In this document: positions 42,156 through 62,961 of the stretch, in pieces | How positions within the stretch are numbered: position 1 is the stretch's first letter | Layout: each line of letters starts with the position of its first letter | IMG/VR virus record: IMGVR_UViG_3300013195_000003 | Location: 1-64,000 of that record | Origin: a virus | Direction: 5' to 3' (one strand) | DNA: 64,000 nt | Position numbers and translations under genes: made by a program | The notes under the pieces: generated by a model | The model's input: the letters and a program-made list of their open reading frames with translations, nothing else | What the model was told of the DNA's origin: nothing | Database searches by the model: none

Positions 42156-42806
42156 ATGAAACCTATTACACCTATTCGTCCTGCTGAGCTGATGCTTGAC
42201 GGGAATTTGACTAAATCAAACTTTGACGACTTCATTGGTGTTTGGGAAGGGTTTATGCCCAAAGCAGAATGCCAAAAATATATTAACTGGTTTGAAAATC
42301 TAGAGAGTAACTCTTGTGTCGTTCAACCTGGAATGGATCCTGGCGAAGTTGCCGATGGTAGATTCCAGTTTGAAATTGGTGGACTAGGGAGACTCGATAA
42401 GCAAACTTTAATTACACATCAAAACCCTGAACTGCAGCAGTGTTGCAATCAATATTTGATGTCAACCCTCGAACACTATATCTCTGAGTTTCCCCAGCTT
42501 GCGAATCAGTCATTGATTAGTAGCTGCATAAAAATGCAGAAGACTGAAGAAGGTGGTGGTTATCACGTCTGGCATTTTGAAGCAATGGGTCTCGATCATT
42601 CATCACGTTGTTTGGTTTGGGCGATTTATCTGAATGATGATTATGAAGGCGGCGAGACTGAGTTTTTGATGCAGAAACGTCGTGTAAATCCTCCCGCAGG
42701 AACTGTAGTTATTTGGCCAGCTGGGTTTACACACCCACACAGAGGAAACACGGTATTAAAAGGCAATAAATATATTTTGACTGGTTGGTATTATCACAAC
42801 TCGTAA
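42156..42806 (+). CDS. 2OG-Fe(II) oxygenase, His-x-Glu type
   Basis: 216 residues. The iron site reads YHVWHFEAMG, giving His140-x-Glu142 in place of the usual His-x-Asp, GGETEFLMQK follows, and PPAGTVVIWPAGFTHPHRGN supplies the distal His193 and nearby Arg. Related proteins in phage and bacterial prolyl-hydroxylase-like families have this arrangement. It directly follows the Ig-bearing collar gene (TAAATG). Substrate unknown; tail proteins or host factors are possible (inference). Confidence 0.78.
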   Translation: MKPITPIRPAELMLDGNLTKSNFDDFIGVWEGFMPKAECQKYINWFENLESNSCVVQPGMDPGEVADGRFQFEIGGLGRLDKQTLITHQNPELQQCCNQYLMSTLEHYISEFPQLANQSLISSCIKMQKTEEGGGYHVWHFEAMGLDHSSRCLVWAIYLNDDYEGGETEFLMQKRRVNPPAGTVVIWPAGFTHPHRGNTVLKGNKYILTGWYYHNS

Positions 42807-43461: not shown

Positions 43462-44136
43462 ATGTTTTATCGTTATGAACTTCTGAATCACGTCAAAGTA
43501 AATCATATAACAAATGTATTTGACACTAGTATTTGGGAAGATGGATCGAAATCTGGTAGTAAAGACAAAAAACTGAAAAATAATCGCCAGCTTTGTAGAG
43601 ACTCTGCCTTAGCGTGCTGGAGAATATTTGAAGAAGATTTTGATAATCATCCAATAGTTTATGCATCTTTAGCTACTTCTGCATACACATTGCCACACTT
43701 TTGTAAGTATGGTATCGGATGCCATTACGATTGGCACGTCGATCACACTCATATGGGCGATGGAATCGGAATACGAGCTGATGTTAGTACGACGGTATTT
43801 CTTAATGACCCTGTAGAATATGAAGGTGGGGTGTTAGAGCTTAAATTTGGAACGGAAACTCTAGAAATTAAATTGCCAGCTGGATGGGCGTTTAGTTATC
43901 CTACTGGAATAAAACACAGGGTTACGCCTATTACATCTGGAGAGAGAAGAGTAGCAGTATTGTGGTCTCAGTCACGATTCAAAGAACCTATGGATCGTAT
44001 GGCATATGCAAATATTAGAGAAACATCATTAAAATATAATATTACCAGTCCAGACCATCCTGGTTGGGAGTTGCAAAATGCCCTGGACAATGCCGAAATG
44101 CATTTACTTAGAACTAAAGGCGATCTGAGATCATAA
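43462..44136 (+). CDS. PKHD-type 2OG-Fe(II) hydroxylase
   Basis: 224 residues. Full PiuC/YbiX-like set: YGIGCHYDWHVDHTHMGDG gives His92-x-Asp94, then TTVFLNDPVEYEGGVLELKF, the distal His152 in TGIKHRVTPITSGER, and Arg163 in RRVAVLWSQSRF for 2-oxoglutarate. YbiX/PKHD-type enzymes are oxidoreductases of unknown substrate; cyanophages carry several. Length is near the ~225 residues of bacterial PKHD hydroxylases. Ends at the late box for the protease gene. Confidence 0.88.
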   Translation: MFYRYELLNHVKVNHITNVFDTSIWEDGSKSGSKDKKLKNNRQLCRDSALACWRIFEEDFDNHPIVYASLATSAYTLPHFCKYGIGCHYDWHVDHTHMGDGIGIRADVSTTVFLNDPVEYEGGVLELKFGTETLEIKLPAGWAFSYPTGIKHRVTPITSGERRVAVLWSQSRFKEPMDRMAYANIRETSLKYNITSPDHPGWELQNALDNAEMHLLRTKGDLRS

Positions 44137-44173: not shown

Positions 44174-46795
44174 ATGAGCAATAGAATTATTGCGAGAATT
44201 TCTAAGGAAAATCAAGCTGGCGCTGTTATCGAAAGAGCAAAACAGCGTTTTACTTCACTAAAAAACACCGAAGACTTGAGTAGAGTCAAGACGGTGTTTC
44301 TTGACTTCGATTCAAAAGATGATAATTTCATCAATATACTGAAGGGAGACGAATTCCCTGAGGTCATTGGTGCTCTGTGGGATCGAGAAACTTTTATTGG
44401 TGGAGTCGAAACTCTAGAGGAACAAGTCAGTCCTGAAGGTGATGTTGTAGGAATTTTTAATTCTTTCGATAGACAAGCTGCAGCTGTTGCGGCATCTACT
44501 GAGGAAGATTCTGTTAACCTTATTGCACAGCAAATTAAACCCTCTGATTATGGTAATGTAATCCCGTATACTGTTGGTGCTGGCACTACATACTCAGTTA
44601 CTGCAACTATTACCAATACTTCTAACGGTCCTAAATTTTACATTAATGGTAGTTTTGAGGCACCTGATCTCACTTTCCTTTTTCCTGGTCACGAATTAAT
44701 TATTAATGTTGCTGATAATAGCAACTTCGGATATACACTTGCTTTTTCCGAAACACCTGATGGTACACATAATGGTGGTACTGAGTATAATGTTGGTGTA
44801 TCTAGAACCAACACTCCTGGTACAACTAATGCCGAAGTTCGTTTAGCAGTTTCGCAAACAACTCCTAAGCAGCTTTACATCTACGCCCAAGAGACTCCGC
44901 GAGTGGGTCTGCGTGGTGGCGGATTCTTGAATGCTACCGATCACGGTAAAGTTGCAATGTTTAGTAAGTGGTACTTAGCACGTATCACACAACAGCAGAA
45001 TGGATTGGATTATGGTCTGTTCTCTTACACTGAGCACGGTGACGGTGTTGACTGCTATATTATTGACTCTGGTGTCCGTGGTGCATCACGTCCTACATCT
45101 GCAACAGGTGCTAACCTTCACCCTGAATTGTTCCACCCTGATTATGCAAGTGATCTGAATGATATTTCTAATCAGAACGAATATAGAGTATACGAAGTTC
45201 CTGGGTATAACTCTGGTTACACTGTTAATGGTGAGGCAGACTCTAACGAAGATGACAATGGTCACGGCACAGAGTGCGCCATTATGGTTGGTGGTTTGCA
45301 ACACGGTGTTGCACGTAAGACTAGATTTTATGCTCTGAAAACTCAGGGCAGTAATGGTAGTGGACTGTTGTCCAGCTATGTGTTTGCAATCCTTGCAATC
45401 ATTAATCACAATGATCCGAACCATCCTAACTGGAAAGGTAACAACAGACCTGCTGTGGTGAACGCATCTGTTGGCGTTAATCTTCCTTCAGAGGTTTCTC
45501 CTTTCGTTCCTCAAAACGAACCTGGATTTGATAGTGGTCCATATGAAGCTGATACAGCGATGGATGACTATGAAAATCTTGCTGTAGAGAACGGTATTGT
45601 ATACGTTCGCTCTGCAGGTAACGGTTTTGGTTATAACTTCGCTTACGGTGGTTTCCAAGCTAAGTTCAACCCTGGTCCCCGTACTGCTGGTCCTCAGGAC
45701 TACAGATATAATATGGAGGGTATCAGCGATAAGATTTCTGTCGGTGCTACTGCCTTCGATAATACATTCTCTGGTTTCTCGAACTATGGTCAGGGCGTTA
45801 CTACCAGTGCGCCTGGTGAATCTATCTACTGCCCACATTACTACTGGAACACTAACACTCAGTACAGCTCTGTCACCAGTACTTTCTATGCATACATTAG
45901 AGGTACTTCATTCTCTGGTCCTTTGACTGCTGGTGTTGTTTGTCAGTTCCTTGGTAAGAAAGGTTATCAGAACAGAACAACCTATGAAGGTAAGTCTGTC
46001 CCTAAGCTTGCTAAAGAATGGCTTCGTAGAAGTGTTGATTGGGATTATGAAAGAGATCAGTCACCTGTTGGCGAAGAGTACGGTGGTGGTAGTGTCAATT
46101 TGTATCCTACTGATGACATCGATGAGATTACTCTTGACGGTGTTAATACCTTTATTAATGTTCAGGCTGGTAGTAATGAAGTTACGATTGGTCTTGGTAG
46201 CGAATTTAGTCGCTTCAATCCTGTTTTGGGTGATAAGATCCAGTTCCGTATTCCTGAAGCAATTCCTTCTACGGATGTCATCACCGATATTTGGGTTACC
46301 AGTGATGGATCTCCAACATCAGCATATTATCAATCTGGTGGTCTGTTGAACGTTGTCACTGATAACGATCCTTCTCCTGGTCTTGCTGGTACATTCCCTT
46401 CTGGTGGTACGACTGGTTATGTTTCCACATTGTCTATTCAGAATCAAGGTTCTGGATATACAGTCGTTCCTTCAGTTTCGCTGAATGGTGGCGGTGGTGT
46501 TGGTGCTACAGCAACAGCTGACATTACATTAACTGGTGGTAACGTTACCAGTATTAACGTTGATCAGTCTGGTTCTGGATATACTTCGGCACCTACAGTT
46601 GCAATTGTCGGTGATGGTCAAGGTGCAACAGCTGAAGCTACTATCGCATTGACTGGTGGTGGTGTTGATAGTGTTACTGTTACTAATGGTGGTTCTGGTT
46701 ATAACCCTCTGAACTTGCCTGCTGTTACATTTACTGGCGGTGGGGGGAGGGATGCTACTGCAACAGCAACAGTTGTTGGTGGTATTTTTACTTAA
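44174..46795 (+). CDS. virion-type subtilisin-family serine protease (first part of a broken giant gene)
   Basis: 873 residues up to an in-frame TAA. Complete S8 catalytic set: Asp298 in DCYIIDSGV, His364 in DDNGHGTECA, oxyanion Asn483 in VRSAGNGF, Ser579 in RGTSFSGPLTAG. The first ~100 residues (IIARISKENQAGAVIERAKQ) could be a propeptide, followed by one cupredoxin-like beta domain without metal ligands (about 135-240). After the protease come Gly-rich repeats (GSGYTVVPSVSLNGGGGVGA, GSGYTSAPTVAIVGDGQG, GSGYNPLNLPAVTF). The stop at 46793-46795 falls in such a repeat where the next copy reads GAA. A late box precedes it. It is likely the N-terminal part of one gene with 46740-53957. Confidence 0.85.
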   Translation: MSNRIIARISKENQAGAVIERAKQRFTSLKNTEDLSRVKTVFLDFDSKDDNFINILKGDEFPEVIGALWDRETFIGGVETLEEQVSPEGDVVGIFNSFDRQAAAVAASTEEDSVNLIAQQIKPSDYGNVIPYTVGAGTTYSVTATITNTSNGPKFYINGSFEAPDLTFLFPGHELIINVADNSNFGYTLAFSETPDGTHNGGTEYNVGVSRTNTPGTTNAEVRLAVSQTTPKQLYIYAQETPRVGLRGGGFLNATDHGKVAMFSKWYLARITQQQNGLDYGLFSYTEHGDGVDCYIIDSGVRGASRPTSATGANLHPELFHPDYASDLNDISNQNEYRVYEVPGYNSGYTVNGEADSNEDDNGHGTECAIMVGGLQHGVARKTRFYALKTQGSNGSGLLSSYVFAILAIINHNDPNHPNWKGNNRPAVVNASVGVNLPSEVSPFVPQNEPGFDSGPYEADTAMDDYENLAVENGIVYVRSAGNGFGYNFAYGGFQAKFNPGPRTAGPQDYRYNMEGISDKISVGATAFDNTFSGFSNYGQGVTTSAPGESIYCPHYYWNTNTQYSSVTSTFYAYIRGTSFSGPLTAGVVCQFLGKKGYQNRTTYEGKSVPKLAKEWLRRSVDWDYERDQSPVGEEYGGGSVNLYPTDDIDEITLDGVNTFINVQAGSNEVTIGLGSEFSRFNPVLGDKIQFRIPEAIPSTDVITDIWVTSDGSPTSAYYQSGGLLNVVTDNDPSPGLAGTFPSGGTTGYVSTLSIQNQGSGYTVVPSVSLNGGGGVGATATADITLTGGNVTSINVDQSGSGYTSAPTVAIVGDGQGATAEATIALTGGGVDSVTVTNGGSGYNPLNLPAVTFTGGGGRDATATATVVGGIFT

Positions 46796-49700
46796 ATTAC
46801 TATCAACAATCCTGGTTCTGGGTATTCTGAGGGACCTACAGGGTAGTGATGCTACTGCAACAGCAACAGTTGTTGATGGTATTATTACTGAAATTACTAT
46901 CAACAATCCTGGTTCTGGATATTCTGAGGCACCTACAGTTGGTATTGCACAATCTGCTCCTCCGAATCAGGGTAACGTTGTACACGCACCTGATAGTGAA
47001 TTTGTATCGGGTGGCGGATCTACAACCTCTGCCTCGCTGAATCAAACCACTCGTCTTCTGACTGTGGTTGCTGATAACTTACCTCAACCTGCACTGTATG
47101 GTGCTTTCCCGAATCCTAATAATAGCAATGCTATTACGGGTCAGTCTTATAACCATACTTGGGTCTATCGTGGCGGTAGAAACATTAGTGACGAGACTCC
47201 TACAGCAACAACTGATCAGGATTCTATTGGTATGGCTCTGAATGGTATTCAGCTCCGTCATTATTCGCACGGTCTTAATACTGACCTGCCTGATGGCACT
47301 GGTTGCCCGACTGGTTATACCTTCAATAAGATCTATAATTCCGCAGCTTTTGGTGCTGATAATGGTAGTGGTGTGACAGATTCTTCTGGTGTCTATCACT
47401 ATACCACTGGCAACTTCCTCGTCAATAGTTGGAAAGGTTCTAGTACAACCTATACTGTTACTGTCAGTGATCCTGGATCTGGTAATAAGTATTACTTAAA
47501 TGGTGGATTAACACCGAACATTATTCTGACTGAGGGTAACACATACTACTTTGATCAAAGTGATGCATCCAATGGTGGTTATCCTTTCAGAGTTTCTGCA
47601 ACACAAGATGGCGTTCATACACAAGGTGGTGTAGCTTACGAAATTGGTGTTCGTTATCAGGGCACTCCTGGTGATGGTCAACCTGGCACTGGTTTATATC
47701 TGCAAGTTCAACCTGATGCTCCTAACCTTTTCTACTATTGTTCATTGTATAGTGGTTACGGAAATGCTGCATCGGTTACTACAACTAATAACACAGCTGC
47801 ACTGCCCTCTCACACGACATCTGATATTATTAATGCTACCCATCACTCTCCTGTGATTGGTTATGCATATGATGGATATCCAATTTATGGTCCTATTGGT
47901 TATGCAAGTCCTGGTTCTCCGACCACACTTGCAAGAATGCAATCTTCTTATGGTTTGAAGACGCAGCGCGATGGTCAGCAATATGCTGGTTCTACTTATA
48001 ACTGGAACGTTACTACTGATGATAACTTAGATTATGATTTTACTGGGGAATCTAGTGGTACTGATGTTGCAATCACTGCTAACATCGGTGATAACCTTGT
48101 GTTCAACGTCAATGCTTCTTACACCACTGGTGGTGGCGGCGGTAGCACACCGAATACCTACAACTTAGTTGTTACTGCATCTAGCTTCAGTGATTATACA
48201 GTTTCTGGTTCCGACAGAACTGGTAACATCAATGGTTCTGACCCTGCATTGACATTCTACGAAGGTGATACTATCAACTTCACGGTGTCTGCATCTGGTC
48301 ACCCGTTCTACCTGAAGACACAAGCTGGTACTGGTACTGGCAACCAGATCTCTGGTGTTACTAACCAAGGTACTGAGTCTGGTACTGTTTCTTGGACTCC
48401 TGGTGCTGGTTCTGCTGGTACTTACTACTACCAGTGTGAGTATCACAGTAGTATGGTCGGTACGATCACTATCCAGTCTTCTGGTGGTGGCGGTGGTACA
48501 ACTGTGACCCACCCGATGTGGATCCAGACAGTTCCTGCTCCTTACAACCCGACTCAGGTTGTTGGTGCTGTGACTAACAATGGTAGTCACAATGCTACTA
48601 TTCTGTGGAACACAACAACTGCTGCAGCTGGTACTTACTACTATGTGTCTGAGAATGCTCAGGCAATGACGGGTACGATTACATTGTCCGAACCTGTTGG
48701 TTATGCACCATCTACGACTGCATATCCTATGGGATCATTCGTGGAAGATTACGAATATGTTGGAAATGGTACTCTAGATCGCCGCAATGGTAGATTCTGC
48801 GTAACTCCTGAATTCCCAGGTGGTACTTATGCATACTTTATGACATTTGATGCATCTGCTAATCCGCAGTTCCCATATCTTTTAGGCGATCAATACTATG
48901 GTACAGCAGTAACTGAGTCTGATACTGCACCTCAAAACCCACTGTTTGAACAACCTGCATCAGGTAGTTGTACAATTGGTACCCAGATTGGTGTGGTGGA
49001 TGCTGTTAATGTTATTGAACAAGGTGTTGGTTATACATACGCCAATATCGAGTTTAGTGGTGGCGGCGGCGTTGGTGCACAAGCATCATCTAATATCTCG
49101 GTGCTGGATGGTTATGTGTCTGGTCTGACATTGGTTGATCAAGGTACAGATTATACATCTGCTCCTACTGTTGATATCGATCCTCCAAACGTTGGTGGTG
49201 GTACTCAGGCAACAGGTGTTGCACAGATTGCCATTACTGCTGGTAACCCGAATAGTATCGACAAGCAAAGCTTCAACCAGAACTTTAATTGGAGAGGTGG
49301 TACAAACTATGCTACAGATACTATTGAAGCGAAACCACTGCGCAGTGTAAATCCCTTCGCTATTTCTAGCACGGGCGCATTTATTTACCATTATTCTTAT
49401 GAGAGTGGTCCTACTCCTGGTTGGACATACAATGCTGTTACTAACGGTAACCTTGTAGGCGAAGATGCTTACGGTGGTTTCCCCAACACTAGTAATGTTT
49501 ATGGATACAACTCTAGTAAGCTGTTAGGTGCATATGGTTCTGTTGCAATTGCAGGTTCTAATTATCTCTCTAGTTCTTATTTTGATCTCGGATATCGCAC
49601 CGTCAATTATCTTGTCACTACCGCTGTAAAGACTGAAACCAGTCCTTACTACAACCAAGGTGGTACTCATCAGTATATGCTCCGTGGTGATACGTTTACT

Positions 49701-52700
49701 ACTCCGACTGAGCAACCTCAGATTGATTTTACTAGAGGTAACACGTATATCTTTGATTTAAGTGATGCTAGTAATGATGGTCATCCGATGTACTTCTCTA
49801 CTACCGATGATGGTATCTTCGGTGGTGGTGTTCGCTTCGGCAATGGTATTACTTATCGTTTGGATGGTGCTTCTGTTGATGCAGTTACATTCACTAACAA
49901 CTTTGATAGCGCTACCACTCGTACAATTACGATAGTTGTTCCTCAAGATTGTCCTGCACTTCTGTACTATGTTTGTGTGAATCATCAGAGAATGGGTAAT
50001 CAGATTGTTGTTAACAGCAACATTCAAGGTGATTACAAGCGTCATCCTGATGGTCACTCCAAGATTCTTGGTATGACGTTTGATGGATATCCTCTCTATG
50101 GTCCTTATGGTTACTCTGATCGTGATGATAGCAGCAGTGCTGTCATTCGTATGAAGCCTGCATATCTCCTGAAGCTGGAGAATAGAGTTCCTGATATGTT
50201 CGGTTCGCGTCCTGCGCAAGGTACATATCCTCTCGGAAGCTTTATCGAAGATTTTGAATACCAAGGTGGTGTTGAGGAAGATAACGTTACCGACGTTACT
50301 TTCACTGTACAGGCAGCAACTGCATCGCAAACTGGTAGCGGTGGTCGTTACTATATCTCTGGTGGTTTGTTAACTGGTAGCGCTGAGAAACCAGCTTTCA
50401 ACTTTAAGAAAGGTAGAAAGTACATCTTTAATCTTTCTGATGGTTCTAACGAAACGCACGCTATGCTGTTCTCCACAAGTGGAGATGCACAAGCACAGGG
50501 TTGGCACGTGGCAGGTTCTAGTGTGGGTGATGCAAATGCTGTCTATGGTGCTGGTGTCGTCTATAAGTTAGAAAATGTTGAGGTTGATTATGCTACATAT
50601 GTCGCTGGTTTTGATGCTGCAACTCAGAGAAGCATTGAGTATACTCCTACATCAAATGCACCTCACGTTCTGTACTATTTCTGTTACAACCATCCCAATA
50701 TGGGAGAGCGTATCATTATTGGTGATCTGGACAGCAGAAATGGTCGCTATTGTGTGACACCTGACTATCCGAATGGTACTTACGCATACTTTATTACTGA
50801 GGATAATAATGGTAACCCTGCCTATCCTTATGTGATGGGTGATAATTACTACTCTGATCCTGTCTTCCCTGGTGGATCTGCTACCGAAGGTTCTTCCTAT
50901 GTCTATGACATTGGTGGTCTGCAATTCAACGTGATGCAGAGATATTGGCACGCCATTACGGATGTCAATGCAGGAACTGGTACGATTATGATCGAACCTG
51001 ACGCAGCTCAGTTCACTGGTGTTCAAAATGAAGTTGGTGGCAATCTGATCAAGATTGCAAACCTTGAGGGAACAAAGCAGCGTAGTGATGGTGTTCAACG
51101 TTGGATCGATCAGAACCCTGTTGGTAACAAATTGTACTTCCAGACTGAAGCTCAGGAAGATGCTGGTAGTGGTGAGGGTACTGAGATCATCTATCTGCCT
51201 GTAGATAAGGGTGTTGATGATGGATCTATGAGAGGTTTATTCTCTCCTTATATTGATCTGCTGACCACGTGGTACACACCTGCTGGTGCTCTCGGCACCT
51301 ACAATATCGGTGATACCGTCAATCTGCAACTGGGTGTCTCGTTCCTTAGAACATATGCTGCGGAGACTATTCTTGATCGCGATTACTCTCTGACTGGTGA
51401 CTCTATTGCTAACACTGGTTTGTCATTTGACACTGAAACAGGTGTCTTAAGTGGTATTTTGGTTAATAATACCACTCTTGACCTCACACTGACTGTCGAA
51501 GAGAACATCTCTGGTCAGACTCAGACCTATACTATTCAGCTCACAAACACTACAGTTACTGTACAGAATGTTTCTCTGAAGACCTCTGGTGTTGCTAGAG
51601 CGATTGATTATGCTGCAGTTACTAAGAAAGCTGGACAACCTAATGATGATGCTATCTGGGCAGAGAATGCCTGGTACTCGCGTCCTATGAATTATAAGTC
51701 ATTCTCTGTTCTTGCTTATCAAACAGGTTACGAGAATACTAACTTTGAGTTTATTCCTCAGTGGCAGATCTTTAAAAATAAGGGTGGTGGAACACTGTGG
51801 TATAACTTGAATGAGTTCTCTACTGGTCCTGTTGCAGCTGGTCAGTCTTGCCAGATTGAAGAGGGCGATTGGTTTGAGAACAACTATGATGCTCGTGATC
51901 AGTTCTACGTTTATAATGAAACGTTTGAAGATGTTACTGGACACGAAATTGCTATTTCTTACCTCATTGCTAACAAGTGGTGGAACTATGATCAAGACTT
52001 CTTCCGTTGTAAGCTGCGTTATCGCTTGATCTTTAACTTAGTTGCTAGCGGTAATGATTATGCTGTTGTGGTTAACCAATCTGGTTCCACCGTGTTTGAA
52101 GTTCCTAAGGGTGCTACATATCGTTTCGATGTAAGTGATGCATCCTGGGCGGGTAAGAACCTTGAACTTAGAGAGTCTCCAACGGGCAGTGCATATATCG
52201 GATCTAATGTCAGACGTTATGGTACTCCTGGCACTCCTGGTGCTTGGGTTGATCTTATCGTCGATGAATCGCATCCTGGTTCTGTCTTCTACTTTGGGCA
52301 GACTGGCGGTAGTACATTTGCTTCGCAGCACATTGACTTCACCTCTGTGTTTACTGCGCTGACATCCAATACTGTACAACTTACAGTCAATAATATTCCT
52401 AACGTTCCTGCTCAGCCCCTGCTGACAATGGAATCTGGCGCTACATCTATCACTGCAAATACTTACTCTGTGGTGACTGAGTATGGCGCACTGACACACT
52501 TCCCGAATGAGCTTGCCTATCAATCTTCTGGTAGGTCTCCTAAGGATGGTCGTTATCCTGTTCGCCTGCTCTGCACTGACCAAAACATTGAGTTCAACTG
52601 GTACCGTAAGCTGTACAGTTACGACACCAGTACTGGTGTTAAGTCCTATAACTGGGATACTGTTGCCAATAGTGCCAGCACATATGTGCCCCTGAATTCT

Positions 52701-53957
52701 CCTCACTACAGATCCAGAAGAGATTATGGTAATAGCTTGACCAACTATCACTCTGCTTGCGCACTTGATGGTGCTAGCATCTATCAAGAAAACTACATTA
52801 ATTTGAATGAGGAATTCCCTCTTCGTGTGAACTATGGTGGTCCTCAGATTGAGATTCCTATTCAATCTTCCTCTACATTGAATCCTCCTCTGGCAAATAA
52901 TGGTAGTGTGCTTCGTGTCACTGACCTGCCTTGTAAGGGTGTTCCTCACGGCGAGAATGATCCTTACTCTTATCAGGTTGTGATTGGAAACGGTGCATCT
53001 CTGTCCTCTGTGTCTAACGAGATCAGCGTGATTCCTAACCCACCTGAACTGGGTATGTGGTGGTATGAGTATGATAATGGTTGGTCTGGTACCGTTTCTA
53101 ACGGTTACCTGCGTCACGATCAAGGCTTCGTTGATACTACTCTGACCTGTGGTGATTACTTTGGTAACGTTCTGATTCGCTCCTTCGTTATTGACGTGGG
53201 TCCTGCACCTCTGAGTGCACTGCCTTACATTGATATCAACACACTGCAAGTACAAGATTACTATAAGGGTGCACAGAACTTTACTGTCAGTAACAACCAG
53301 ACTCAGGATGTAACAGTTTCCTACACTATTGATGCTGGTCAGTTTACTTGGAGATTGCGTCTGATTAATGAGTTCCCCTATATGGAGAACGTGGACGGTG
53401 GCACTAGAACTGTGTACACAGTAAATAATCCCACCCACGCTAATGCTCCTACAATTGTTAACACTGGCGACTTCAGCACTTATAGTGGTCAATTAGCAGC
53501 TGCTACTGGTGTTCTTCGTGAGTGTCCCTTCCGTGGTGACACCAACATTAACCTGCCCGTTGACTTCTCGGTGAAGAATGATATTCAACCCGCTATCTTC
53601 CCTGCACGTGGTACTCAAAAGATCTACACACTGTGGGTGGAGCTGGTTGAGTCTCCGTTCGATCTGGTTGACTTGATTAACCTTGTAGCGGTTGCTGATC
53701 CTTGTCAGGATCACACCTATGACTTCGCATACACCTCTAATGGTGCTTGTATTACTCCGTCTAATGACTACTTCTGCAACTTCATCAAACCTCTGCGTGA
53801 TCGTAACCACGCTGAACAACCCATTATCGGTATGGAAGGTGTGGCACAGATCAAGGTAACTGATGGTATTTCGCCAAGAACATTGGACTTCCAAGTCCCT
53901 GCTCCTTGGCCTGTCCTTTACAGCTACCTGGGCGATTGTAACCCCACTTGCGCATAA
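46740..53957 (+). CDS. giant adhesin-like protein with tandem cupredoxin-like and YHYH modules (second part of the broken gene)
   Basis: The coding signal runs from about 46842 to 53957 (about 2370 residues); the first ~35 codons after 46740 are off-frame repeat sequence. Domains in order: end of a GxGY repeat; a degenerate cupredoxin-like domain (nt 47410-47770); YHYH-type module GYAYDGYPIYGPIGY (47850-48060); intact cupredoxin-like domain with HPFYLKT and YYYQCEYHSSM (48165-48477); a partial degenerate copy (YYYVSENAQAM); RRNGRFCVTPEFPGGTYAYF; a GxGY repeat; intact cupredoxin-like domains ending YYVCVNHQRM (about 49980) and YYFCYNHPNM (about 50690) around another YHYH unit; then long beta sequence and a degenerate copy near 52030-52330. 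No transmembrane segment. It is probably a tail fibre or tail-associated protein. Confidence 0.8.
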   Translation: MGGGMLLQQQQLLVVFLLKLLSTILVLGILRDLQGSDATATATVVDGIITEITINNPGSGYSEAPTVGIAQSAPPNQGNVVHAPDSEFVSGGGSTTSASLNQTTRLLTVVADNLPQPALYGAFPNPNNSNAITGQSYNHTWVYRGGRNISDETPTATTDQDSIGMALNGIQLRHYSHGLNTDLPDGTGCPTGYTFNKIYNSAAFGADNGSGVTDSSGVYHYTTGNFLVNSWKGSSTTYTVTVSDPGSGNKYYLNGGLTPNIILTEGNTYYFDQSDASNGGYPFRVSATQDGVHTQGGVAYEIGVRYQGTPGDGQPGTGLYLQVQPDAPNLFYYCSLYSGYGNAASVTTTNNTAALPSHTTSDIINATHHSPVIGYAYDGYPIYGPIGYASPGSPTTLARMQSSYGLKTQRDGQQYAGSTYNWNVTTDDNLDYDFTGESSGTDVAITANIGDNLVFNVNASYTTGGGGGSTPNTYNLVVTASSFSDYTVSGSDRTGNINGSDPALTFYEGDTINFTVSASGHPFYLKTQAGTGTGNQISGVTNQGTESGTVSWTPGAGSAGTYYYQCEYHSSMVGTITIQSSGGGGGTTVTHPMWIQTVPAPYNPTQVVGAVTNNGSHNATILWNTTTAAAGTYYYVSENAQAMTGTITLSEPVGYAPSTTAYPMGSFVEDYEYVGNGTLDRRNGRFCVTPEFPGGTYAYFMTFDASANPQFPYLLGDQYYGTAVTESDTAPQNPLFEQPASGSCTIGTQIGVVDAVNVIEQGVGYTYANIEFSGGGGVGAQASSNISVLDGYVSGLTLVDQGTDYTSAPTVDIDPPNVGGGTQATGVAQIAITAGNPNSIDKQSFNQNFNWRGGTNYATDTIEAKPLRSVNPFAISSTGAFIYHYSYESGPTPGWTYNAVTNGNLVGEDAYGGFPNTSNVYGYNSSKLLGAYGSVAIAGSNYLSSSYFDLGYRTVNYLVTTAVKTETSPYYNQGGTHQYMLRGDTFTTPTEQPQIDFTRGNTYIFDLSDASNDGHPMYFSTTDDGIFGGGVRFGNGITYRLDGASVDAVTFTNNFDSATTRTITIVVPQDCPALLYYVCVNHQRMGNQIVVNSNIQGDYKRHPDGHSKILGMTFDGYPLYGPYGYSDRDDSSSAVIRMKPAYLLKLENRVPDMFGSRPAQGTYPLGSFIEDFEYQGGVEEDNVTDVTFTVQAATASQTGSGGRYYISGGLLTGSAEKPAFNFKKGRKYIFNLSDGSNETHAMLFSTSGDAQAQGWHVAGSSVGDANAVYGAGVVYKLENVEVDYATYVAGFDAATQRSIEYTPTSNAPHVLYYFCYNHPNMGERIIIGDLDSRNGRYCVTPDYPNGTYAYFITEDNNGNPAYPYVMGDNYYSDPVFPGGSATEGSSYVYDIGGLQFNVMQRYWHAITDVNAGTGTIMIEPDAAQFTGVQNEVGGNLIKIANLEGTKQRSDGVQRWIDQNPVGNKLYFQTEAQEDAGSGEGTEIIYLPVDKGVDDGSMRGLFSPYIDLLTTWYTPAGALGTYNIGDTVNLQLGVSFLRTYAAETILDRDYSLTGDSIANTGLSFDTETGVLSGILVNNTTLDLTLTVEENISGQTQTYTIQLTNTTVTVQNVSLKTSGVARAIDYAAVTKKAGQPNDDAIWAENAWYSRPMNYKSFSVLAYQTGYENTNFEFIPQWQIFKNKGGGTLWYNLNEFSTGPVAAGQSCQIEEGDWFENNYDARDQFYVYNETFEDVTGHEIAISYLIANKWWNYDQDFFRCKLRYRLIFNLVASGNDYAVVVNQSGSTVFEVPKGATYRFDVSDASWAGKNLELRESPTGSAYIGSNVRRYGTPGTPGAWVDLIVDESHPGSVFYFGQTGGSTFASQHIDFTSVFTALTSNTVQLTVNNIPNVPAQPLLTMESGATSITANTYSVVTEYGALTHFPNELAYQSSGRSPKDGRYPVRLLCTDQNIEFNWYRKLYSYDTSTGVKSYNWDTVANSASTYVPLNSPHYRSRRDYGNSLTNYHSACALDGASIYQENYINLNEEFPLRVNYGGPQIEIPIQSSSTLNPPLANNGSVLRVTDLPCKGVPHGENDPYSYQVVIGNGASLSSVSNEISVIPNPPELGMWWYEYDNGWSGTVSNGYLRHDQGFVDTTLTCGDYFGNVLIRSFVIDVGPAPLSALPYIDINTLQVQDYYKGAQNFTVSNNQTQDVTVSYTIDAGQFTWRLRLINEFPYMENVDGGTRTVYTVNNPTHANAPTIVNTGDFSTYSGQLAAATGVLRECPFRGDTNINLPVDFSVKNDIQPAIFPARGTQKIYTLWVELVESPFDLVDLINLVAVADPCQDHTYDFAYTSNGACITPSNDYFCNFIKPLRDRNHAEQPIIGMEGVAQIKVTDGISPRTLDFQVPAPWPVLYSYLGDCNPTCA
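46751..46944 (+). repeat. 97-base tandem repeat at the protease/adhesin junction
   Basis: Copies 46751-46847 and 46848-46944 both begin GATGCTACTGCAACAGCAAC and agree except at about five positions. Copy 1 has ACTTAA where copy 2 has ACTGAA (stop versus Glu). 97 bases is not a multiple of three, so the frame changes from one copy to the next. Confidence 0.85.
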
Positions 53958-58767: not shown

Positions 58768-61700
58768 ATGCCATTATTCGCAGCGAAAGGAATGATGTCG
58801 TCTGGTGGCGGCGGAAATTTCTATACCCTTGCAGAAGCAAAGAGAGATACGGCTGATAACTCTAGTTATCGTCAACCAACAGGTATGTTTGACGTTGCAA
58901 CGTCATCTTCTGGTGAAGTCTACACACTGAATGGTGAGCGTAATACTCTCACTGGTTTATACAATGCTGTTGTTGCTAAGATCGGTGCTATCGGTGCTGT
59001 GTCTTGGCAATACACATTTTCGGCTGCGAAGAATGTCTATCCTTGTGCTCTAGCTTGTAATACTGAAGATAATAGTATCTTCGTCTGTTTGATGGTGACC
59101 ACAAATGAAAATGGTCAAAATAATTATAATCTAAAGCGTTATAACTACGCTAATACTGGATGGAACGATTCTACTAGTGATGCCATCTATCATATTATGA
59201 GGATCAGTTCTTCTGGTAGTAGAACCTGGGAGAATGTTTGGAGTTCATCTAATTCTCTGTCCTACCCATCATCTATCAACAGGTTGAACAATGCGGGTAA
59301 TGGATTTGAACACGCTAATGTGTTTGAGAACAGAAATACATCACCCACACAGCACGAAACATCTCTGATTGGTGCACCTGATCTCAAGATTACGAAGACG
59401 AGATCATATGATGGTACAAATATGGCAGCTACCACGCCATTTGAACCTAGATCTGCTGCTGTCAATGATAGTGCTAATGCAATTGACCCCACCACAGATA
59501 CATTAACTGTTCTTGGTAAAGCTTATGGTGGTGAAGAGAGTTATGAAGCATATGCATTAGATGGTCCTGCATTTGGTGGTCGCCCGCAGTCAACATCTAA
59601 TATTGTTATTGATTATGATAATGATCAGTTTTATATTTTGGTAGCAGGTAATGCTACTACTACAGATATGTCTGCTTCTCGTAGTACAATGCAGGCACTG
59701 CAGATTCCTTTCAGTGGAGTCACAGTAGAAGCTCGTGAATTAGTATATCCTGGTGGATGGGATCAGAATGCTAAGATTACATTAGATAGAACTGGTAACT
59801 TATTAGTTCCTTGGACTGGCACTAATAAAGAAGCACCGTATAAGAATGCCACCAATAGACCTGAGCTATATGATACGGGTGTTTCTGCTTCTAACATTAA
59901 CACCGCTAATACTGGTGCATTCTTGAAACTTGATTGGGATAATGTTGAGTTAGACTTAATTTATTTTAATCTATCTAATAATGCACCGACTAAGGTTTGT
60001 AAGGTAGAGTCTGAACCTCCCGCTGAAGGTACACTGTACGAATATATTACTACTGGTGGTTTAACACCAGCAACGACCGTTCAACTTGGTAAAGAGATAG
60101 CTAGTAGAGACAATACTGTCGGTGATAATAGAAGGCAGTTAGGTCGCCATTCAAACTTTGTTCAGCTTCATAAAAGAAACACTGCCACTAGTGCTCTCGA
60201 ATGGGTGAGAACTTTCTTTGCTATCCCTCGTGCTAGCACCAGGGATATGAACAATTGGTTTAATGATGGATCTACAACAAATAAAGGTGGTGGCGCATTT
60301 ACAGCAGATATCCACGTTTCTGATTCTAAGGTTTTTTCTAATGGCATATATTACGTTGGAAATGTAATTTTGCCTAGTTATGGTGTTTCTGGTACTACAG
60401 AAACTACTGTAAATAACTATTTTGGTTTCATTGCAAAAGTTAATTTTGATGGAAAAATTGATTATATCAGAGAAATCAGAGCTTTAGAGATTCTTCCAGA
60501 CACTCCTAATCCAAACGAGAAACCTGTTTATCATTATGCACCAACTGTTGATGGTGGTGTTCTGTTGGATAGCATCAACTTTGATGCATTTAACAATATG
60601 ATTGTAACTGGTAGACACGTTGATGCACAGTTCCAAGGTACTGTCGGCACTTATGTTAATAATATGATCTTTAAGTTGCCTCATAATGGTGACTTAATTG
60701 GTCCTATCGAAGTAATATCTGATTACGATTCACATACCAAGAGATTCACATATTCTCCTGCGTCTAGTGTTAGATGTTGGGAGGAGACGAAGTACGATAC
60801 TAGTATTTCTTATGGTGGCAACCTTGAGACATATAAACTGTTAAGATGTTGTGCATTGTGGAATACATCAGCTAGTCCTACTAATCCTAGTACTTTGGGT
60901 GCTGTTAGTACACAAACTAACTACAATGCTTGGATGTCATCTGGGCAGAGAATGGTAGACATTGGTGCTGGTGGTTATGTTGGTAGATTTCTATGGACAT
61001 CACCACAAACTAATTTACAGATTGATCCTACAACTAATAGACAGTGGGATCGTGCTACTCGTAGAAGTTCTTCGTCTGTGTTCTTACAAACCTACGAAGA
61101 ATCTACAGCTAATAGTAGAATTGAAGTGCAGAAGTCTGTCCCTGGATTTGTATACGTTGACCAGACAGTTAATACTGACAATGCACAAACAGACTTTGAT
61201 GTTCCTTCATATGCTAAGGCAATTGGTCAAGGCAATACTGCTGATATTCAAGAGATTGCAAAGCACGAACTTCCTAATGCAATGGTCTCTGTGTCACAGT
61301 ATTGGGACGGTGATTTAGGTCTGCGTCAACAGCTTTTAACACGTCACAGTCCTACTGGTGGTGTTGAGGCACGTATCTATGACACTGGTTATAACACTTA
61401 TCCTAAAGATGTATGTGTTGATGAAGTTGGTAACATTTATACAGTAGGTTGGACAGCTGACACTACTAATAGCAATAACTTTGGTTGTGGTTATGTTACC
61501 TGTTATGATAAAGATATGGTATTCCAGTGGGATTATCAGTATGTGAACTCTGATACCAACACATTAGGCAGCGCTACTGATAACTATCAGATTCACGCTT
61601 GTGCTGTTACATTGGACAGCGCAAACACTGCGAAATTGTTTGTTGCTGGACATTTTACGCAAACTAATAGTGGTACGGATACACAGCTAGCAACAATTGG

Positions 61701-62961
61701 TGTCATTCCTCTCAGTATTGCTGGTTCTGGTGCTTCTACGGTAGTTGGTATGGGTATCACTAATTCTTCTATTGCTCTTGGCGGTGGACAATCTGGTAAT
61801 GCTGTTGATGGTATTTTTGGTCTGGATGTTACCCAGGTTGATGCTACTGATGGAAACTTCTTGTATGTTGGTTATGCTGGCAATACATATGACACCACTG
61901 GTACTACCAATCGTGGTATGTACGGTGTCACTAAATGGAATGGTAGTACACCAGACACAACAACAGCTAACAACTGGGCATATATCACTGGTGACGATCT
62001 TCGCTTAACATCATTTGCCTTTGGTAAGGGTGTTGATTCCTATGAGAAAGAGTTTAATTCGCCTAATGGTGATTTTGGTCTCAGGTTTGCTGTTGGTGGT
62101 GATGAGACGCAAGCAGGTGATACTAATGGTGTTGTGATTATTGCTAACGTTAGAAGAGATAGTGCTGGTAGTAAAACACACTCTGGTGCACCTCTTTCAA
62201 CCACATCAGTTGTTATCAACAATGCTAATGGTGCTGATGTTGTTAGAGATTTGCGTTGGGGTTATGCAGAAACTCCTGGTGTTAACACATTTAAGTATGA
62301 TTCTGGTACTACCACACGTGTAGACAATAGACTTGGTGAATCTGCCATTGAGAATGATGCTATCAATACATTCTATGGTAGAAACGCATACGAAGATAGA
62401 CTATATGTCGCACTGTCTGTTACCAACCAGTTCTCGCAAATTGATACTTATGTGATGGAGATCACTGCTGCACAGCTTCCTAGTCGCACTGGTGGTAATT
62501 ACAGAACACCCGATGCTGCTAATGTCACTAGAGTTGGTAAGTTGAGTACATCTGGTATCACACAACCAGCTGGCGTTTGTGTTCTTGGTCCGCAGTATGG
62601 TACACTAATGGTGTCTGCTACCTCTGCCAACTCTGGTACACCTAATGATCGTCAGCTCTTGACTGCGAAAGTACCTCTTGATATGTCTAAAAAGGATAGT
62701 GCATATATTGAAGTGGGTTCGCAATTTGTATACTGGGATGATCCCGAGTTCTCACTCACACTTATTGGTAAGGGATTGTTCTCTGTTGAACTTGATCAAT
62801 TGAATACTACATCATATAATGATGGTACGCGATTCTATTGGGGTGGTACCACTGCTAATGGAAGCTGGGCGCAATACAGTGGCAATAGTTATCCTGATGT
62901 TGACAACGTTGGTACATATGTTGTTCGTACTCAAGATTTGCAACAATACAAGCAATCTTGA
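58768..62961 (+). CDS. large adhesin with beta-propeller-like repeats
   Basis: 1397 residues. N-terminal Gly-rich anchor (MPLFAAKGMMSSGGGGNFYT), then repeated beta-propeller-like blades: TYPKDVCVDEVGNIYTVGWT, ATDNYQIHACAVTLDSANTA, KLFVAGHFTQTN, VTQVDATDGNFLYVGYAG. The usual propeller pattern of a polar strand followed by D-(G/V)-N-(I/L)-Y-x-(V/A)-G recurs at about 50-60 residue intervals. The C-terminus (FVYWDDPEFSLTLIGKGLFS, FYWGGTTANGSWAQYSGN) looks like a separate knob. Likely a receptor-binding tail protein. No peptidase or hydrolase motif seen. Confidence 0.72.
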   Translation: MPLFAAKGMMSSGGGGNFYTLAEAKRDTADNSSYRQPTGMFDVATSSSGEVYTLNGERNTLTGLYNAVVAKIGAIGAVSWQYTFSAAKNVYPCALACNTEDNSIFVCLMVTTNENGQNNYNLKRYNYANTGWNDSTSDAIYHIMRISSSGSRTWENVWSSSNSLSYPSSINRLNNAGNGFEHANVFENRNTSPTQHETSLIGAPDLKITKTRSYDGTNMAATTPFEPRSAAVNDSANAIDPTTDTLTVLGKAYGGEESYEAYALDGPAFGGRPQSTSNIVIDYDNDQFYILVAGNATTTDMSASRSTMQALQIPFSGVTVEARELVYPGGWDQNAKITLDRTGNLLVPWTGTNKEAPYKNATNRPELYDTGVSASNINTANTGAFLKLDWDNVELDLIYFNLSNNAPTKVCKVESEPPAEGTLYEYITTGGLTPATTVQLGKEIASRDNTVGDNRRQLGRHSNFVQLHKRNTATSALEWVRTFFAIPRASTRDMNNWFNDGSTTNKGGGAFTADIHVSDSKVFSNGIYYVGNVILPSYGVSGTTETTVNNYFGFIAKVNFDGKIDYIREIRALEILPDTPNPNEKPVYHYAPTVDGGVLLDSINFDAFNNMIVTGRHVDAQFQGTVGTYVNNMIFKLPHNGDLIGPIEVISDYDSHTKRFTYSPASSVRCWEETKYDTSISYGGNLETYKLLRCCALWNTSASPTNPSTLGAVSTQTNYNAWMSSGQRMVDIGAGGYVGRFLWTSPQTNLQIDPTTNRQWDRATRRSSSSVFLQTYEESTANSRIEVQKSVPGFVYVDQTVNTDNAQTDFDVPSYAKAIGQGNTADIQEIAKHELPNAMVSVSQYWDGDLGLRQQLLTRHSPTGGVEARIYDTGYNTYPKDVCVDEVGNIYTVGWTADTTNSNNFGCGYVTCYDKDMVFQWDYQYVNSDTNTLGSATDNYQIHACAVTLDSANTAKLFVAGHFTQTNSGTDTQLATIGVIPLSIAGSGASTVVGMGITNSSIALGGGQSGNAVDGIFGLDVTQVDATDGNFLYVGYAGNTYDTTGTTNRGMYGVTKWNGSTPDTTTANNWAYITGDDLRLTSFAFGKGVDSYEKEFNSPNGDFGLRFAVGGDETQAGDTNGVVIIANVRRDSAGSKTHSGAPLSTTSVVINNANGADVVRDLRWGYAETPGVNTFKYDSGTTTRVDNRLGESAIENDAINTFYGRNAYEDRLYVALSVTNQFSQIDTYVMEITAAQLPSRTGGNYRTPDAANVTRVGKLSTSGITQPAGVCVLGPQYGTLMVSATSANSGTPNDRQLLTAKVPLDMSKKDSAYIEVGSQFVYWDDPEFSLTLIGKGLFSVELDQLNTTSYNDGTRFYWGGTTANGSWAQYSGNSYPDVDNVGTYVVRTQDLQQYKQS

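Follow-up and report, generated by a model that had tools for sequence, protein, structure and literature searches.

A 97-base tandem repeat splitting a giant subtilase gene in a virus record from a metagenome: very probably an artefact of assembly

The split gene and its parts

The window, that is, the whole stretch of DNA analysed here, comprises bases 1–64000 of a 105,079-base IMG/VR virus record, from a virus resembling marine cyanophages. It contains two overlapping ORFs which, judging from their domains and their relatives, are most likely the two parts of one underlying gene of about 3,240 codons, predicted to encode a giant virion protein (tail/baseplate-type) with an N-terminal subtilisin-like protease domain. 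The parts of the locus are as follows.

44174–46795, + strand: ORF A, 873 aa, N-terminal part of the giant gene, with Peptidase_S8 followed by GxGY repeats
46740–53957, + strand: ORF B, 2405 aa, C-terminal part of the giant gene, with YHYH domains
46744–46840, + strand: copy 1 of a 97-base repeat, an extra copy with errors, which holds a TAA and shifts the frame; an assembly artefact is most likely, judging from the repeat, the substitutions and the absence from relatives
46793–46795, + strand: premature TAA at which ORF A ends; 0/7 compared relatives have the copy-1 T
46841–46937, + strand: copy 2, the true copy, which aligns to the relatives' single copy and shares its letters at the differing sites with relatives

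ORF A has a Pfam match to PF00082 (Peptidase_S8, subtilase; E=9e-24) over residues 298–596, and its catalytic Asp, His and Ser (D298, H364 and S579) are kept in all 16 sequences of an alignment that took in 12 uncultured relatives and three cultured cyanophages. In ORF B, Pfam identifies YHYH domains. Each of the two ORFs matches PHROGs that group virion and baseplate proteins of phages. Among these is phrog_27200, which matches ORF A (E=1.5e-106) as well as ORF B (E=6.6e-68), on either side of the break. The initial annotation had proposed a single gene of about 3,260 codons on the grounds that the upstream and downstream parts share GxGY and cupredoxin-like modules. The shared GxGY repeats were recovered, those of the two ORFs matching the same PHROGs (phrog_701, 708 and 4406), but no cupredoxin family was called by Pfam in either ORF. 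Over 44174–53957, the giant gene would encode one virion-type protein in which a predicted subtilisin-like protease with intact catalytic motifs is combined with GxGY repeats and YHYH domains.

Elsewhere in the window, two 2OG-Fe(II) oxygenase-like genes (42156–42806 and 43462–44136; phrog_61) flank a tail-fibre-assembly-like gene within a run of virion structural genes, and an ORF of 1,397 aa at 58768–62961 has no PHROGs match at E 1e-5.

The 97-base repeat and its counterparts in relatives

ORF A and ORF B overlap at 46740–46795, ORF B lying in the next frame. The start of ORF B is unconvincing, being a GTG within out-of-frame letters, and the first 34 residues, likewise out of frame, have no counterpart in relatives. 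The overlap falls at the tandem pair of 97-base copies, which had been recognized earlier as meeting at this site and which could be placed at 46744–46840 and 46841–46937 (93% identical, TRF score 341). Self-comparison of the whole 105,079-base record revealed no other close direct repeat comparable to this pair which, as the sole nearby direct repeat of its kind, is not due to chance. The TAA reported in copy 1 against GAA in copy 2 is indeed present at 46793–46795, as are the T-to-G-like differences (GGTGGGGGGAGGGATG at 46739–46754), and the full tally comes to seven substitutions, at 46747, 46750, 46779, 46787, 46793, 46822 and 46833; 46744 is probably an eighth. Copy 1 in addition carries a GGGGGG run. 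Since 97 (3 × 32 + 1) is no multiple of three, an extra copy alone shifts the frame. Thus, the nonsense codon and the frameshift both exist as described, but they are not two separate lesions: a single additional segment of 97 bases brings both, as one event. Inside the 97-base unit lies an imperfect, foldable inverted repeat (46776–46815 and again 46873–46912; GTTGTTGATGG.../...CTATCAACAAT), which may favour sequencing or amplification trouble at the locus.

The intact fusion that the initial annotation suggested looking for in relatives is general among them. Viral contigs were scanned twice, which gave 26 distinct contigs reaching the junction. In all 26 the frame stays open there, and the complete frames, of 3,234–3,308 codons, support a single gene, of about 3,240 codons in the present case. 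Compared with the protein of one such relative (L010; 3,239 aa, 80–82% identity), ORF A corresponds to residues 12–884 and residues 35–2405 of ORF B to residues 869–3239. The match thus runs from end to end, save that about 16 residues, which are the duplicated segment, occur in both ORF A and ORF B. At the DNA level, base-by-base alignment left copy 1 without a counterpart in 7/7 relatives, while copy 2 aligned to their single copy; self-comparison of the seven revealed no tandem, and the G run is missing from all of them. At the seven sites where the two copies differ, 0/7 of these relatives have a copy-1 letter, whereas the copy-2 letter is present at every site in at least some of them. 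Viral contigs were also searched with exact patterns for the junction in single-copy and in duplicated form and for the flank downstream; there was no hit, and no other near-identical assembly of this strain emerged. When cultured phages were searched at the DNA level, the whole region had no match and the GxGY region only weak repeat matches.

Origin of the extra copy

The substitutions in copy 1 follow a pattern. In 7/7 cases the letter equals the preceding + strand base of the true sequence, for which the expectation is about 0.26 per random substitution and 8e-5 for 7/7, a value to be read in the light of a test devised after the substitutions were seen, on only seven events, and with two reportable directions, which would at most double it. 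Natural variation in the same gene gives a preceding-base fraction of about 0.2–0.3 in most comparisons. Only 2/7 of the substitutions equal the following base as well, which gives the pattern a + strand read direction. Transversions make up five of the seven and transitions two, whereas natural close variants show 55–100% transitions, mostly at third positions; five of the seven alter the encoded residue, in one case giving a stop. For Illumina sequencing, GGT has been described as the most error-prone trimer, with T miscalled as G (GGT to GGG), and the bases before a position are known to draw its call toward their own identity owing to lagging molecules, errors increasing toward read ends (PMC3295828, PMC8002175, PMC4787001).

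An assembly or sequencing error, one of the options listed in the initial annotation, is thus supported by both the absence of the extra segment from relatives and the error pattern of its letters. We consider it very probable that the gene split is a short-read assembly artefact in which 97 bases of the sequence appear twice, the earlier copy bearing phasing errors. Repeat collapse, which had also been suggested, is the opposite of what occurred, as an extra copy was written. We infer that copy 1 would stem from the ends of + strand Illumina reads, where quality is low and phasing would have led to bases being called as their predecessors; because of the 7% mismatch, the assembler may then have failed to merge copy 1 with the true stretch and joined both head to tail. 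A segment with 7% errors is normally discarded for low k-mer coverage, and one must therefore assume either that the same systematic errors were present in several reads or that a contig-merging step was involved. A literature search for such tandem misassembly returned nothing specific.

Another possibility, albeit a very unlikely one, is that the tandem duplication is real in the strain and breaks the gene, the genome being defective or the split neutral. Slippage does create tandem duplications, and the segment both sits among degenerate GxGY repeats and has a foldable inverted repeat. However, a recent duplication would be identical, and if 7% divergence reflected great age, the virion gene would have been broken for long, whereas both halves are still conserved (72–84% identity to the nearest relatives) and open throughout; nor is the substitution pattern a natural one. 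Even less likely is that, the duplication being real, the protease-bearing N-terminal and YHYH-bearing C-terminal parts are made as separate virion proteins, which would be the only such split among relatives. It could also be that the assembler concatenated two strain variants of the segment, an assembly artefact too but one arising from a strain mixture rather than from read errors. Metagenomes contain mixed strains and the outcome would resemble a tandem of diverged copies, but strain differences are mostly third-position transitions, and a copy 1 with five transversions, a stop besides four other altered residues, and the preceding base at 7/7 sites points to errors, leaving strain concatenation with very little probability. 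A functional arrangement, either phase variation by 97-bp copy number, as raised in the initial annotation, or programmed frameshifting over the copy-1 GGGGGG, is scarcely credible: the ORFs do overlap at 46740–46795 and the G run does lie in copy 1, but tandem and G run are found in 0/7 aligned relatives, copy number does not vary among these seven and the frame is uninterrupted in 26/26 contigs, the differences show the sequencer's error pattern, and a shift in the overlap would add about 30 hydrophobic out-of-frame residues seen in no relative. A programmed frameshift or RNA element was also rejected on structural grounds, as the fold of 46700–46860 (z=-2.45) is mostly due to the inverted repeat that copy 2 has as well, and the only Rfam hits in the window are tRNAs.

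In the annotation of the record, the ORFs at 44174–46795 and 46740–53957 should count as one gene. More generally, when a virus record from a metagenome shows a nonsense codon together with a frameshift, a single assembly event can account for both, and asking whether the substitutions copy the preceding base is a simple test that exposes such an artefact.

Comparison with known genes and errors

In terms of its domains, the underlying gene is unremarkable: it belongs to a known family that combines subtilase, GxGY repeats and YHYH (T4-GC 519 / phrog_27200). Peptidase_S8 with its Asp, His and Ser is present and the family profile matches on both sides of the break, while the assembled record shows an interrupted frame. 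As we attribute the break to assembly, it is only the underlying gene that we assign to the family. The family members of the T4-like cyanophages P-HM2 (PHM2_106), MED4-213 (CPMG_00018) and S-BM3 (SBM3_00202) likewise have an N-terminal subtilase with the D/H/S motifs and C-terminal modules that match ORF B, each in one uninterrupted frame. They differ in length, with 1,827, 1,840 and 2,648 codons, respectively, against about 3,240 for the present gene and its uncultured relatives, and their subtilase part is about 30–42% identical to that of the present gene. The letters of copy 1, for their part, resemble the phasing and GGT-to-GGG systematic errors of Illumina sequencing (PMC3295828, PMC8002175) in that a base is called as its predecessor and GGT becomes GGG. 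The published errors are in reads, where they cluster at the ends, whereas those of copy 1 sit in the assembled consensus as an extra tandem copy.
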